A DNA stretch of 64,000 bases, taken from Aurantiacibacter atlanticus (GTDB lineage: Bacteria; Pseudomonadota; Alphaproteobacteria; Sphingomonadales; Sphingomonadaceae). The number at the start of each line of letters is the position of its first letter. Position 1 is the stretch's first letter. The notes below the pieces were generated by a model. That model saw nothing but the letters and a program-made list of their open reading frames with translations, made no database searches and was not told the DNA's origin. Below are positions 38,188 to 45,317 of this stretch, in pieces. The stretch spans positions 310,001 to 374,000 of the forward strand of contig NZ_CP011310.1 of NCBI RefSeq assembly GCF_001077815.2, read 5' to 3'. The translations under genes were made by a program, and so were the position numbers.

Positions 38188-38446
38188 GATTGGTTTTCGA
38201 CGATAATGATCTGCGAATCGCCGCTCAAGCATGGCCAGGGCCAAAAAAGGTTAATCGCGGGGGAAAACTTCGTGTTTCGCAGGTCTGACGGCGCTCTTCA
38301 GCCGATGTTCACTGCCAAATGTGCAAATAGAGGCGAACAGGGGAACCGACGCGGTGTCGCAAATCGCACGCAAAACTGGCGTGCCTTACTGGCATTTCAC
38401 GCGCAGCTTTCCCAAACAGGTAAATATTCGCAGGACAGGACTACGT

Positions 38447-38947
38447 ATGACCACTCGCATTCTTCGCCAAGCTGGCGCCCTTTTGTTCGGCTCAGTGATT
38501 CTTGCAGGACTTTCGCTTCCCGCCAGCGCCCAGCAATATCGCCAGGAACTGCGGCATTCGGTTGCGCCCTGCCAAGGTAGCGGCCCGGCAGTGTGGATCA
38601 ATGTTACCGATGTCGCCGCTTCGCGCGGCACCCTGCGCATTCAGCTTTATCGCGGGACCGATGCCGATTGGCTAGAACGCGGCCGCTGGTTGCACCGGAT
38701 CGAAGTGCCTGCGCGCGCGGGCAACATGCAGGTTTGCATGCCCGTCCCCGCCACCGGCAATTACGCCATCGCCATTCGGCATGATGTAAATGGCAATGGC
38801 AGCACCGATATCCGCACCGATGGCGGAGGCATGTCAAACAACCCCAGTATCAACATCTTCAATCTGGGCCGCCCGAGTATAGACAGGACGCGCTTTTCGA
38901 TCGGGCGCGAAGTGAAGCCGATGGCGATCAGAATGCGCTATATGTAA
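38447..38947 (+). CDS. DUF2141-family exported protein
   Basis: 166-residue protein with a Sec signal peptide (ALLFGSVILAGLSLPASA) and a small beta-sandwich-like domain of the DUF2141 type: GTLRIQLYRGTDADWL, then YAIAIRHDVNGNGSTDI (a family-typical loop) and the ending KPMAIRMRYM. Function of the family is unknown; members often lie beside carotenoid, sterol or lipid genes. GGACAGGA upstream of the ATG at 38447 supports the start. It converges on the Tam41-like gene with a 20-base gap. A second DUF2141 gene is at 62014-62502. Confidence 0.82.
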   Translation: MTTRILRQAGALLFGSVILAGLSLPASAQQYRQELRHSVAPCQGSGPAVWINVTDVAASRGTLRIQLYRGTDADWLERGRWLHRIEVPARAGNMQVCMPVPATGNYAIAIRHDVNGNGSTDIRTDGGGMSNNPSINIFNLGRPSIDRTRFSIGREVKPMAIRMRYM

Positions 38948-38954
38948 CGCCCGG

Positions 38955-38980
38955 GCGCAAGTGCTCTTCAACCCTTGCGC
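38955..38980. terminator. Possible stem-loop between convergent genes
   Basis: GCGCAAG at 38955-38961 pairs with CTTGCGC at 38974-38980 across a 12-base loop. It spans the junction between the DUF2141 gene and the convergent Tam41-like gene. There is no run of T residues on either side, so termination activity is only a guess. Confidence 0.25.
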
Positions 38981-39855
38981 TTTGCGCGCCATACCCGCCA
39001 CAAGACACCGGGTGCCGCCAGCACAGGGTGGCTTTCGCGCCATGGCGTGATCTCCACCTTCACCCCGGTGTGCCGTTCCACCTTCCAGGCGGCATAGCGT
39101 CCGGCGCCGTCGAAAGTGCGGGTTGCGCGCACCAGTCGCGCTATGTTGAGCGGTTTGCCGAGCCGGCGGCGCCGGTGCCACCACCGCAAGATCCGTCGGC
39201 GCTCACCAGCGGGCATCATCGGGGTGATTACCTCGCCATTCTGCGAATAAGGGATATTGGCGGCCGCCAGCGTTGCAGCCAATAAACCGTCGAAATGCGC
39301 GACATTCAAATCAATGATGGAATCCTCGCGCCCCGGCTTTTCCACTCGCAATTCTGCTTTGTAAGTTGCGCGGAATAGCGCGCGCCAGAAATCTTTCTCG
39401 GCGCTGCAAGGCGGCCCTGCGGCTACGGCCAGGCGGGCCGCGGTCATACAGGCGGCCTGCACCGCCTCATTTACCGATTGCCCCACCGCATCGTCTCGGC
39501 TCCACGCAAGCGCGCTCGGCTGGACGAAACGCGCCCAGATCGTGGTGTCCCGCGATTTGCCAGCTGCTGCATTAGCGAATTTGGCCATCGTCATCGTCGC
39601 TATCTTGGCGCGTAGCGTCTCACCCTGATGGTCCCACTCGCGATAGGAGACGCGCGGCCACATGCCGGTTTCTGCCTCGCCAGGCAGAAGGACATAGAAA
39701 TCGAGAACGCCCTCGCGCGCGCCGGTGCGCAGATTGGAGCCGTAAAACAGGACCGCCATTGCGTCCGCTTCCTCGCCCAGTTGCGCCGCAAAGCTACGCG
39801 CTGCGGAATCCATGGTGCGTGAGAGAGACGCCGTGACAAGAGATGCAAGGGTCAT
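38968..39855 (-). CDS. Nucleotidyltransferase-like protein resembling Tam41 (CDP-diacylglycerol synthase)
   Basis: 295-residue soluble protein. The start of its core, FYGSNLRTGAREGVLDFYVLL (about 37-57), has the GS...hDF layout of nucleotidyltransferases. The later stretch RATYKAELRVEKPGRED followed by IIDLNVAHFDGLLAATLAAA recalls mitochondrial Tam41/Mmp37, which makes CDP-diacylglycerol from phosphatidic acid and CTP. The likeness is by eye against the remembered family pattern and is distant. The gene follows a diacylglycerol kinase gene with a 38-base gap on the same strand; that kinase would make phosphatidic acid, Tam41's substrate, which supports the idea. Otherwise it would be a hypothetical protein. 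Confidence 0.55.
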   Translation of the reverse strand: MTLASLVTASLSRTMDSAARSFAAQLGEEADAMAVLFYGSNLRTGAREGVLDFYVLLPGEAETGMWPRVSYREWDHQGETLRAKIATMTMAKFANAAAGKSRDTTIWARFVQPSALAWSRDDAVGQSVNEAVQAACMTAARLAVAAGPPCSAEKDFWRALFRATYKAELRVEKPGREDSIIDLNVAHFDGLLAATLAAANIPYSQNGEVITPMMPAGERRRILRWWHRRRRLGKPLNIARLVRATRTFDGAGRYAAWKVERHTGVKVEITPWRESHPVLAAPGVLWRVWRAKRKG

Positions 39856-39893
39856 CGGGCCAAGACCATCCGATACCGCTCAGGCGCGGTCGA

Positions 39894-40922
39894 TCACGGA
39901 ACGACGAAACGCAGTTTCGAGCCAGCCGTAACCCTGTAATTGCCCGCCGGGAAAGCTTCACCATCAAGGATGAAGCTGTCTGACAGATCAAGGTCAATCG
40001 TCTCTGTGCCCAGCACATGCGCGCCACGCTGCAATGTCGCCTCGCTTGCGGTGCCGCGCATCAGAGCTCCGATCCGCAGCAGCAATCCGCGCCGGGGGTT
40101 GTCCATCACCGCGAGCCGCAGCGGTTCAATCACGGAGCGAAACGGGTTGAGGCCTGCGGGAAAGCCTTCCAGTGTCGTGGCGACGAGCAAATAACGTTCG
40201 TCCTGCGGCAAGCCGCCAAGATGCGTCAGTTCCTCGCCATCACCAAGGCGCACCCGAATCGGTGTGCCGCGACGCCAGGGGTTGCTGCTGGCGCCAAGCA
40301 GGGCCTGCAATACACTCCATCCCGCAGTGACGCCGACGACGGCTGCATTGAACGCGCCGAGTTTGTGCGACTTCTGGCCAAGCGCGATGCAGCGGTTGAA
40401 TGCGCCAGCGCCCATGATGAAGCCGCGCACCTGTGCACTTTCATTCTCACGCTCTGCAATGACGAGAGGCTGCCGGCGCACGATATGACCCAGCTTTGCC
40501 GCCGCCAAGGCTTCTTCAAGCGTCCAGGCAGACAGGATGCCCAGATCCTGTGCCAGTGCATTGGTTTTGCCATTGGGTAGCACAATCACCATCGGCCAGC
40601 TTTCGCCGAATATTCCTGCGCCGCATGTCAAGACATCCCGCACTGTGCCATCACCGCCGTCAATGGCGATGCAATCGACCCGCCGCTCGGCAAAATCGGC
40701 AAGAATACCGGGCAAATCGCTGCGCTTACCCGGCGCAGTGACAATTACGCCTTCCGGCACCTGATGGGCGCCATCACCGCCATGATTGCGATGGCTGCGT
40801 GCATTGCGGATCAGGCCGACAAGCGGGCGCGCACGCAATGGCATCAGCGCACGCTCATCGTCTGCGCCAGGGCGCGCCTCGACCTCAGGCATGCGTTCGA
40901 AAAGATGGATGCTTCCCTGCAT
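39894..40922 (-). CDS. Diacylglycerol kinase-family lipid kinase
   Basis: 342-residue protein with a DAGK catalytic domain. The nucleotide motif is IAIDGGDGTVRDVLTCG (GGDGT at about residues 99-103), preceded by LVGLIRNARSHRNHGG, in the place of the family's NP motif, and followed by IVLPNGKTNALAQDLG. The C-terminal half is the beta-sandwich usual for YegS/DgkB-type lipid kinases (SDSFILDGEAFPAGNYRVT). It should phosphorylate diacylglycerol or a related lipid at the membrane face. The start may be the ATG at 40922 or the later in-frame ATG giving MPLRARPLVGL. It lies directly upstream of the Tam41-like gene. Confidence 0.85.
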   Translation of the reverse strand: MQGSIHLFERMPEVEARPGADDERALMPLRARPLVGLIRNARSHRNHGGDGAHQVPEGVIVTAPGKRSDLPGILADFAERRVDCIAIDGGDGTVRDVLTCGAGIFGESWPMVIVLPNGKTNALAQDLGILSAWTLEEALAAAKLGHIVRRQPLVIAERENESAQVRGFIMGAGAFNRCIALGQKSHKLGAFNAAVVGVTAGWSVLQALLGASSNPWRRGTPIRVRLGDGEELTHLGGLPQDERYLLVATTLEGFPAGLNPFRSVIEPLRLAVMDNPRRGLLLRIGALMRGTASEATLQRGAHVLGTETIDLDLSDSFILDGEAFPAGNYRVTAGSKLRFVVP

Positions 40923-42426: not shown

Positions 42427-42503
<77 letters not shown>

Positions 42504-42557
42504 GCTTTTCCGCCGTTTTCTGATTTCTGGATCGCGCCAGCTCCGGCGAAACTCCGG

Positions 42558-43787
42558 CTAATTCTCGGAGAACGCGCCTGGTGCGGAGGCTTCGATGCGG
42601 TCGATTAACTCCTCGATGAGGCGAAGCGCATCGACGAGATAAGTCTCATGATATGGCGTTGCGTACTTGTCTGACTCGTTCGGTCTGATGTGGCCCAACA
42701 TGAGCCGACCCTGAGTATCCCAACTTTTTTCGGCTTCGAGCAAAGGCCTGATAATGCTCGCGACGCTGCGACGGATCAGTTTCTCTCCGCTTTGCCCGTC
42801 GCCAGAGACGGGGAAGTTGAGCGTTGTGGCCATCTGGCGAAAGGCAGTTCTGATTGAAGCCGCTTTCACGAATTTTCCTTCGTTCGCATTGAAAAGCGCG
42901 ACCATCTGTCTGGGAGCCCTGACGAGTGGCCGGTACTTATTCGTTTGCGCCCGACCCGCAGGGTTTAAATTTACGTAAGCTGCCGCCGCATTCCATTGGC
43001 CCAGATTCGGATCAGTTGAAAAGTCCATGAGCGCATCCGGCCGCGCCCACGTCGCAACACCCAAGCGCAGATATTGAAGTAAGTTGCGCCGCTCACGCTT
43101 CCATTTTTCGATCTGCTTCTCGCTCGCCTCCGGTGGATCGATGACGAGCGCATATCGGAACATTTCAATGAGCTGTTCTTCGGATGCACGGAACCACGGT
43201 GTGTTGCTTACGTCTTCTGCTGCTTTCACCTTGAAGGTAGCGCGATGGGGCAGCTTCCTAGCGATGAAGGCGCTGTTTATCGCTGTCCGGAGCATCGAGA
43301 CGCTTGCCTCAATGGTCCCTGGCGAGCGCTTTCTTTCGATGCCTTTTGGCGAGACGATGGGGACTTTGGCCGCCCATTTCCTGAACTTGCCGGCCCATGC
43401 ATCGCCGAGTTCGTCGCAGCGCACATCCTCTAGGGCTTGGTCCTCAATGTAGGAAAGCACGTGGTTCAGTCGCGCATCGGCAGCGGCGTAATCCGTCTCT
43501 TCGAGATATTCGGCAATCGCGGTTGCGACTAGCGGCAACGGTTCGCCGCTGAAGGCTTGGCCACACGTGGGACAAAACTTCAACCCTCGCTCCCGCTCAT
43601 CGTAGAAACGATCTAGCTCTTCCTTCGCGAGTTCGTGGTCCGACGTGCCCGTTGAATAGCTGCGACCCCTTCCTCCTTCGCGGTCGTAATAGAAGATGTA
43701 GAGGTTTTTGGAGCGGGCCTTTCCATCCGGGTTCGTGTCGAATGCGAGATAGTAGTCGCCGCGTTCGTAGATCTTCTTCTTTCGCAT
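42558..43787 (-). CDS. Tyrosine-recombinase-like protein (integrase) beside tRNA-Arg
   Basis: 409-residue protein with the layout of a tyrosine recombinase, though the motifs are degenerate. The first catalytic-type segment is [15 protein letters not shown]; later come [17 protein letters not shown] in the place of the HxLRH box, LMLGHIRPN for LGH, and [12 protein letters not shown] holding candidate active tyrosines. The N-terminal third has [24 protein letters not shown] and a CPTCGQAF motif, unusual for the group. The start at 43787 follows GGAAGGA on the minus strand. Its 3' end points at tRNA-Arg 55 bases away. No copy of the tRNA 3' end marking the far boundary was found. Confidence 0.65.
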
Positions 43788-43925
43788 TCTTTTTTCCTTC
43801 CTACTGCAATCTCCTTTTCCAGACTTTCCAGTAGTCCGAGTGTCCCCCGTCAGCACCTATGGCACAGATTTGAGGTTGTGATTTAAGGAGGATTTGGGCT
43901 TCGTCGTAGTGACGAAGGAACGAAG

Positions 43926-44300
43926 ATGAAGCCCAAATCCTCAAGGTCCAAATTGCCTGCCGAGCAGGTGGTCAAGGACATCCGCCGCAAGACCCGTCGG
44001 CATTTTTCATCGGAAGACAAGATCAGGATCGTGCTGGAAGGCCTGCGCGGCGATGACTCGATAGCTGAGTTGTGCCGCAAGGAAGGCATTGCCCAGAGCC
44101 TGTACTACACCTGGTCCAAGGAGTTCATGGAGGCCGGCAAACGCCGCCTGGCTGGCGACACCGCCCGTGCAGCAACTACGGACGAAGTCAGGGATCTGCG
44201 CCGTGAGGCCCGCGATCTGAAGGAATGCGTGGCCGACCTCATCCTGGAGAACCGCTTGCTCAAAAAAAGCATGATCGCGGATGGGGGAGACGACGCATGA
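43926..44300 (+). CDS. IS3-family transposase OrfA
   Basis: 124-residue DNA-binding subunit of the transposase. It has a helix-turn-helix region (DDSIAELCRKEGIAQSLYY at about 47-65) and a C-terminal leucine-rich coiled coil (LRREARDLKECVADLILEN) that in IS3 elements pairs with OrfB. The stop overlaps the orfB start in ATGA. It appears intact. Confidence 0.9.
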   Translation: MKPKSSRSKLPAEQVVKDIRRKTRRHFSSEDKIRIVLEGLRGDDSIAELCRKEGIAQSLYYTWSKEFMEAGKRRLAGDTARAATTDEVRDLRREARDLKECVADLILENRLLKKSMIADGGDDA

Positions 44301-45317
44301 GATACCCCGCATCCGAGAAGCTGGAGATCATCAGGATCGTTGAGCAATCGCATCTCCCGGCCAAGCGCACGTTGGACCAGCTCGGCGTCGCACGGCGCAC
44401 CTTCTACCGCTGGTATGACCGTTACCTTGAAGGCGGGCCGGAGGCGCTGGCAGACAGGTCATCGACGCCGATCCGCGTGTGGAACAGGATCGCACCCGAG
44501 GTTCAGGATCAGATCGTCGAGATGGCGCTGGAGCAGACTGACCTCAGCCCAAGGGAACTGGCGGTGCGCTTCACTGACGAGAAGCGCTAGTTGGGCGCGC
44601 TCCGCTTGCCCTTCTTCGCTTCGCTTCGAATCCGTGTCGGAAGCCACCGTCTACCGGCTGCTCAAGGCCCACGATCTGATCACCAGTCCGGCCTATACTG
44701 TGATCAAGGCGGCAGAGGCGTTCCACACCCAGACCACGCGCCCCAACGAGATGTGGCAGACCGACTTTACCTACTTCAAGATCATCGGGTGGGGCTGGGT
44801 CTACCTCTCGACCGTGCTCGACGATTACTCGCGCTACATCATCGCCTGGAAGCTCTGCACCACCATGCGAGCCGAGGACGTCACCGACACGCTCGACATG
44901 GCTCTGGCAGCCTCAGGCTGCGACCATGCCAATGTGCTGCACAGACCACGTCTGCTGAGCGACAACGGTCCCAGCTACATCGCCGGGGAACTGGCCGAAT
45001 ACATCGAAGCGAACCGGATGAGCCATGTGCGCGGTGCACCCTTCCATCCGCAGACCCAGGGCAAGATCGAGAGATGGCATCAAACGCTAAAGAACCGCGT
45101 GCTGCTCGAAAACTACTTCCTGCCTGGCGACCTCGAACAGCAGATCGAGGCGTTCGTCGAGCATTACAACCACCAGCGCTATCACGAAAGCCTCGACAAC
45201 GTGACGCCTGCCGATGCCTACTTCGGCAGGGCTCCCGCCATCATCAAACGACGAGAAAGGATCAAGCGAAAGACACTCGAACATCGGCGCTTGCAACACC
45301 GCAAGCTCGCCGCCTAA
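44297..45317 (+). pseudogene. IS3-family transposase OrfB, broken by a 44-base replacement
   Basis: The N-terminal part reads from ATG at 44297 to a stop at 44588-44590 (ending RELAVRFTDEKR). The catalytic part resumes in another frame at 44634 (VSEATVYRLLKAHDLIT) and runs to 45317. The DDE residues of the rve-type domain are present in the second part: Asp in WQTDFTYFK, Asp in LLSDNGPSY and Glu in GKIERWHQ. Between the two, 44590-44633 holds 44 bases including (CTTCG)x3 where about 4 bases (for Tyr-Phe) would restore the reading. The element should not move on its own. Confidence 0.85.

Follow-up and report, generated by a model that had tools for sequence, protein, structure and literature searches.

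A Tam41-fold nucleotidyltransferase and its partner lipid kinase in Aurantiacibacter atlanticus: a probable route to CDP-ceramide

We analyzed a 64,000-nucleotide stretch of Aurantiacibacter atlanticus DNA (contig NZ_CP011310.1, positions 310,001 to 374,000; hereafter the window) that contains adjacent genes for a lipid kinase and for a nucleotidyltransferase predicted to adopt the fold of Tam41, the mitochondrial cytidine diphosphate-diacylglycerol (CDP-DAG) synthase. We propose, with a probability of roughly two in three, that the kinase makes ceramide-1-phosphate, that the Tam41-like enzyme adds cytidine monophosphate (CMP) from cytidine triphosphate (CTP) to give CDP-ceramide, and that the pair corresponds to cpgB-cpgC of Caulobacter. 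The first-pass annotation of this DNA had read the pair as a two-step route from DAG to CDP-DAG. Given its association with sphingolipid genes, that reading probably names the wrong substrate, and conversion of ceramide through ceramide-1-phosphate to CDP-ceramide is likelier. In Caulobacter, CC_1160 and CC_1161 are reported to be required for ceramide phosphoglycerate (PMC11324152), and the CpgC mechanism is drawn as unidentified in the schemes of a 2025 paper and a May 2026 preprint (PMC12275187, PMC13228409). On balance, although with somewhat less confidence, we favor the broader view that a Tam41-fold CTP:ceramide-1-phosphate cytidylyltransferase is both the ceramide version of the CDP-DAG branch and the missing CpgC step.

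Both open reading frames (ORFs), together with the motifs quoted for the first of them, were found as the first-pass annotation had described (Table 1). The nucleotidyltransferase ORF carries VLFYGSNLRTGAREGVLDFYV and IIDLNVAHF, and its AlphaFold2 model (pLDDT 90.3) shows a nucleotidyltransferase (NTase) domain (residues ~13-138) followed by a winged-helix domain (~139-231), as in Tam41/Mmp37, with a basic helical C-terminus (216-295). Foldseek and VIA matched this model to the Tam41 entries 6ig4, 6ig2, and 7ecd, and these three stood well ahead of every other nucleotidyltransferase among the fold matches listed. The comparison based on the predicted structure therefore supports a likeness to Tam41 that had been judged by eye.

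Conservation was assessed in A3, an alignment of 55 diverse members of the nucleotidyltransferase family. Fifteen residues are invariant in all 55 rows (Y38, G39, D52, P67, K84, W107, R109, Q112, P113, E168, R170, E172, T247, Y254, and K258) and are spread over both domains and the C-terminus; S40 is kept in 52 rows. Position 54, the place of a second acid, is Y, H, C, or F and never D or E. E73, which might supply a further acid, is acidic in 44/55 rows, and the acidic columns between 55 and 140 are all less than 85% conserved. Tam41 is reported to retain one of the three acids usual for the nucleotidyltransferase fold (PMC11646218). The last 80 residues (216-295) hold 22 K/R versus 5 D/E and are mostly helical in the model, a composition that agrees with the basic C-terminus by which Tam41 is reported to bind membranes (PMC7018664). 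At residues ~55-66, the segment joining the D52 strand to P67, the window protein is shorter by about a dozen residues than the distant members L081 and L134. Elsewhere in the window genome (G000), a weak second match to residues 186-292 (C1:605577-605873, minus strand; E 3.1e-4, 30%, 124-aa frame) is chance or a fragment.

The window kinase matches Pfam DAGK_cat (PF00781) at 36.6 bits against a cut-off of 23.6, has a GGDGT motif at residue 89, and lacks CxxxCxxC. Its earlier description as a diacylglycerol kinase thus stands as regards the DAGK family, while DAG itself is probably the wrong substrate. The two genes are codirectional, kinase first, with 38 bases between them. The order as a whole, and genomes beyond it, keep this arrangement: 120 of 127 distinct nucleotidyltransferase loci have a codirectional kinase immediately upstream, the two profile matches being -27 to +214 nt apart. 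The relatives named by contig search include Aurantiacibacter, Alteraurantiacibacter, Erythrobacter, and Croceibacterium. The 127 loci, the window among them, came from overlapping searches in which duplicates were merged by core sequence and matches below 100 bits were dropped; fragments of one broken gene are counted separately (e.g. L158/L159 of G223), and a larger count of 172/182 still contains duplicates. Two rounds of gene calls lost or misrendered the nucleotidyltransferase in 24 and 27 loci, and later counts were therefore made by six-frame profile searches. In a quick tree, 48 operon kinases (47 chosen plus that of the window) separated from 15 DAGK paralogues of the same order (15 of 30 PF00781 loci) with a branch support of 100; CC_1160 and the lipid kinases of the CpgB paper are not in this tree.

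Sphingolipid genes are frequent neighbors of the pair. We scored five core genes: Spt, ceramide synthase (bCerS), CerR, AasR, and CpgA, the first four labels resting on Pfam domains and Caulobacter gene order. By our own cut, 65 loci form a near group (the window, L001-L077 minus L074, and the loci of f1-labelled genomes). Outside it are 62 loci, of which 14 under 6 kb were dropped. Among the remaining 48, at least one core gene was found in 43 and at least two in 36. Loose score limits could let paralogues into these counts; under strict limits the first figure stays at 43 and the second becomes 35. The five loci with no core gene are L097, L141, L157, L159, and L160. In L134, one strand carries in order genes for an AMP-binding protein (AasR), an epimerase (CerR), an acyl carrier protein (ACP), and an aminotransferase (Spt). 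The nucleotidyltransferase, the kinase, and a CDP-alcohol phosphotransferase follow on the opposite strand, and a metallophosphoesterase and two LptF/LptG-type genes, one of these by clustering only, complete the cluster. This order matches that of Caulobacter crescentus from CC_1165 to CC_1155 as given in PMC11324152, with no CC_1157 counterpart seen. In that source CC_1162 is spt, CC_1160 is the ceramide kinase CpgB, and CC_1161 is CpgC, and we assigned the individual names of CC_1163 to CC_1165 from its listing order. G434, a genome from outside the class, combines the nucleotidyltransferase, the kinase, and CpgA with two LptF/G genes and bCerS.

The window itself shows no spt/cpg cluster gene near the pair. 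In its genome, Spt and ACP lie at C1:584.5-586.1 kb and bCerS and LptF/G-like genes at 975.4-980.6 kb, so that the parts are scattered. A scattered arrangement is also described in Sphingomonas wittichii and in Zymomonas mobilis, the latter without CC_1159 (PMC11324152). Three loci of the near group (L046, L061, and L065) retain CpgA beside the pair.

The enzyme also co-occurs with ceramide synthesis. In a class-wide sample of 289 genomes, the nucleotidyltransferase was found in 34, bCerS in 41, and both in 33 (Fisher p 1e-34, ignoring the relatedness of genomes). In G131, the sole enzyme-bearing genome without bCerS (completeness 82%), Spt is partially matched at a contig end ~1.5 kb from the pair; eight genomes have bCerS without the enzyme, one of them (G244) a weak partial match. 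All 61 relatives searched gave Spt and bCerS profile matches; the enzyme was found in 51 of them, CpgA in 12 (five being weak partial matches), and CdsA in 59, the other two genomes being drafts that are 86-87% complete. The window genome has its own CdsA at C1:1764728-1765123, so that the pair is separate from CdsA, as had been supposed. Because the enzyme tracks ceramide synthesis genes, does not replace CdsA, and, in most loci outside the near group, is encoded with its kinase amid sphingolipid genes, its substrate is most likely a sphingolipid.

Seven of the 127 loci have no upstream kinase: three are truncated by a contig end, and four (L142, L145, L161, and L187) show none. Three of these four lie amid sphingolipid genes, and L187 (wider stretch L232, 12 kb) is without any searched gene. 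In L145 and L161 (family f130), the nucleotidyltransferase sits between Spt and bCerS, and no kinase turned up in the stretch; the member scoring above Pfam's Tam41 cut-off is L121/L145. Four order-level genomes (G044, G049, G054, and G059; loci L235, L237, L238, and L236, respectively) have a kinase adjoining Spt and no enzyme, which would fit a kinase that acts ahead of the enzyme, and ceramide-1-phosphate may be the sole output of their clusters. Strict pairing of kinase and nucleotidyltransferase is ruled out by the four kinase-free loci and these four genomes. In G019, a member of the window's genus without the enzyme, the stretch examined shows only Spt and ACP.

These distributions bear on the DAG route, in which the kinase would convert DAG to phosphatidic acid and the Tam41-like enzyme would make CDP-DAG, a second supply beside CdsA. 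The predicted fold is the same as that of Tam41, the kinase has a DAGK_cat domain, and Caulobacter CpgB, which produces ceramide-1-phosphate, is reported to phosphorylate DAG in vitro with comparable activity (PMC10331486). However, CdsA is present anyway in nearly all relatives, the distribution of the enzyme follows ceramide synthase, its gene stands amid sphingolipid genes, and loss of cpgB reportedly left phosphatidic acid levels unchanged in Caulobacter (PMC10331486). We therefore regard the DAG route as unlikely, although some activity on DAG is conceivable in view of the in vitro result, and caution that pairs of a kinase and a Tam41-like protein should not be taken as a diacylglycerol route.

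Besides the in vitro activity of CpgB on DAG, several observations weigh against the CDP-ceramide route. The activity is a prediction from genes and fold, and the match to CpgC is one of gene order. The sequence link to Tam41 is weak: identity to the Tam41 structures is 11-14%, and the profile search proposed in the first-pass annotation left the window protein unmatched by PF09139 up to an E of 10. CpgA, the obvious user of CDP-ceramide, was found in none of the 37 genomes examined of the window's genus, and in Caulobacter this protein (CC_1159) is described as required for the second phosphoglycerate only and not for the first (PMC11324152). Ten of the 61 relatives lack the enzyme yet have Spt and bCerS, which makes the enzyme dispensable for sphingolipids as such. 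In the near group, a sphingolipid gene stands beside the pair in only 7 of 43 loci of at least 6 kb, and four of these seven count through an AMP-binding match, which may belong to a different enzyme. Finally, a literature search of open-licence papers found the term CDP-ceramide together with bacteria in no paper.

Tam41 likeness by sequence was pursued further in the wider family. PF09139 matched three of the 55 A3 members (L121, 28.8 bits; L122, 23.1; L165, 21.8), of which L121 alone exceeds the cut-off of 24. At an E limit of 0.001 for 398 phylum genomes and of 0.01 for 186 class genomes, PF09139 gave a single match in each set, below the cut-off and on a member of the nucleotidyltransferase family. 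Across the 61 relatives, with E up to 10, weak matches arose in four, all below the cut-off and none at nucleotidyltransferase loci. For the window protein itself, NCBIfam returned nothing and Pfam nothing close to a cut-off. Searches of the PDB by sequence (with the single protein, A1, A2, A3, and L121) found no Tam41 chain and returned chance-level matches plus one generic nucleotidyltransferase (9xbd, E 0.024). Since the window protein is unmatched and only one of 55 family members exceeds the cut-off, we do not file it as a PF09139 member. Judged on the predicted model, its likeness to Tam41 nonetheless exceeds chance, because the fold matches stand out and three of the 55 members match PF09139. 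Alternatively, the protein could have taken on a different role, for example as a regulator or in transferring a nucleotide to some other lipid. The low identity to Tam41 structures would allow this, and fold likeness is no proof of function; the 15 invariant residues, including G39, D52, K84, R109, E168, and R170, and the kinase adjoining it in 120/127 loci speak against it, and we consider it very improbable.

The absence of CpgA from the window's genus also fits a route in which the enzyme, acting on ceramide-1-phosphate, goes beyond CMP transfer and would itself activate and then transfer glycerate, or use CDP-glycerate, yielding ceramide phosphoglycerate directly. The published scheme places CpgC alone between ceramide-1-phosphate and ceramide phosphoglycerate (PMC12275187, PMC13228409). 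Against this, the model predicts the fold of a protein that moves CMP onto a lipid phosphate, and no further catalytic domain appears among the fold matches listed. This direct use of glycerate is improbable in our estimate, to much the same degree as the DAG route or slightly more so.

Under the CDP-ceramide route, the pair would be the cpgB-cpgC of anionic sphingolipid synthesis, detached in the window's genus from the other sphingolipid genes. The kinase would convert ceramide to ceramide-1-phosphate. The Tam41-fold protein, which probably associates peripherally with the membrane, would bind CTP between its nucleotidyltransferase and winged-helix domains, as the Tam41 comparison suggests, and would move CMP to the phosphate of ceramide-1-phosphate (CTP + ceramide-1-phosphate -> CDP-ceramide + pyrophosphate), the chemistry that Tam41 performs on phosphatidic acid. 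A CDP-alcohol phosphotransferase, or another enzyme where CpgA is absent, might then pass ceramide phosphate to an alcohol, for example glycerate, giving ceramide phosphoglycerate.

The idea of an activated ceramide is already in print as a guess: the 2024 paper noted that an InterPro domain of CC_1161 hints at a CDP-DAG synthase and named nucleoside diphosphate-activated ceramide as a possible product (PMC11324152). The predicted Tam41 fold, conserved residues, and clustering turn this guess into a definite proposal. Our literature search, limited to open-licence papers, found none that mentions Tam41 with Caulobacter, although the fold is not new in bacteria, a Firmicutes structure being available (7ecd; PMC11646218). 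If true, the proposal would explain the CpgC step, a gap in how some bacteria make charged sphingolipids; CPG2, the end product of the pathway, is reported to aid survival of Caulobacter without lipopolysaccharide (PMC12275187). Because the Tam41 fold proposes a reaction, a cofactor (CTP, with a divalent metal), and residues to mutate, the CpgC question becomes testable by one assay. As a bolder corollary, mitochondrial Tam41 might putatively descend from an alphaproteobacterial sphingolipid enzyme.

Table 1. Features of the window discussed in the text.
Feature	Position	Strand	Length	Basis
Tam41-fold nucleotidyltransferase, CpgC-like by gene order	38968..39855	-	295 aa	ORF, AlphaFold2, Foldseek/VIA
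Motif Y38-G39-S40 ... D52-F53-Y54, one acidic residue	39694..39744	-		Alignment A3
Invariant Lys84 codon	39604..39606	-		K in 55/55 A3 rows
E168-L-R170-V-E172 codons, winged-helix domain triad	39340..39354	-		E168, R170, E172 in 55/55 A3 rows
DAGK_cat lipid kinase, CpgB-like (putative ceramide kinase)	39894..40922	-	342 aa	PF00781, motif check, tree
DUF2141 protein, convergent neighbor	38321..38947	+		PF09912, 69.8 bits

Of the 127 loci, some with short flanks, 82 have a DUF2141 gene no more than 2.5 kb from the nucleotidyltransferase; it is upstream on the same strand in 26, downstream and convergent in 55, and otherwise placed in one. Its product may be a candidate partner, an unnamed part of the sphingolipid system; our search of open-licence papers found none that mentions DUF2141 together with sphingolipid. 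Farther along the window, a tRNA-Arg (42427-42503) is followed by a 432-aa ORF (42558-43856, minus strand) with no Pfam match at 0.001, whose end resembles a tyrosine recombinase by eye; 42427-43856 is possibly the end of an integrated element. An IS3-like element, named by eye, occupies 43926-45317, where two reading frames encode HTH_Tnp_1 and rve domains.

Among known systems, the mitochondrial CDP-DAG synthase Tam41/TAMM41 (6ig4, 6ig2; PF09139) and Firmicutes 7ecd have in common with the window protein a nucleotidyltransferase plus winged-helix fold. Like Tam41, it has a single acidic residue in the first motif and a basic C-terminal region, and some of its relatives match PF09139. Unlike Tam41, it lies below Pfam detection at the low identity noted above and belongs to a setting of sphingolipid synthesis beside an intact CdsA. 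CdsA (PF01148) would yield the same kind of liponucleotide but is an unrelated integral membrane protein. The likeness to Caulobacter CpgC (CC_1161, CCNA_01219) is one of gene order, namely the place in the cluster beside the ceramide kinase gene and spt in the relatives' loci, whereas the window's genus has a detached pair and lacks CpgA. The kinase resembles CpgB (CC_1160, CCNA_01218) in being of DAGK type with GGDG and no CxxxCxxC and in its gene adjoining that of CpgC. CpgD (CCNA_01210), a CTP:phosphoglycerate cytidylyltransferase, is a CTP-using step of the same lipid pathway but, unlike the enzyme proposed here, acts on phosphoglycerate rather than on a lipid (PMC12275187).
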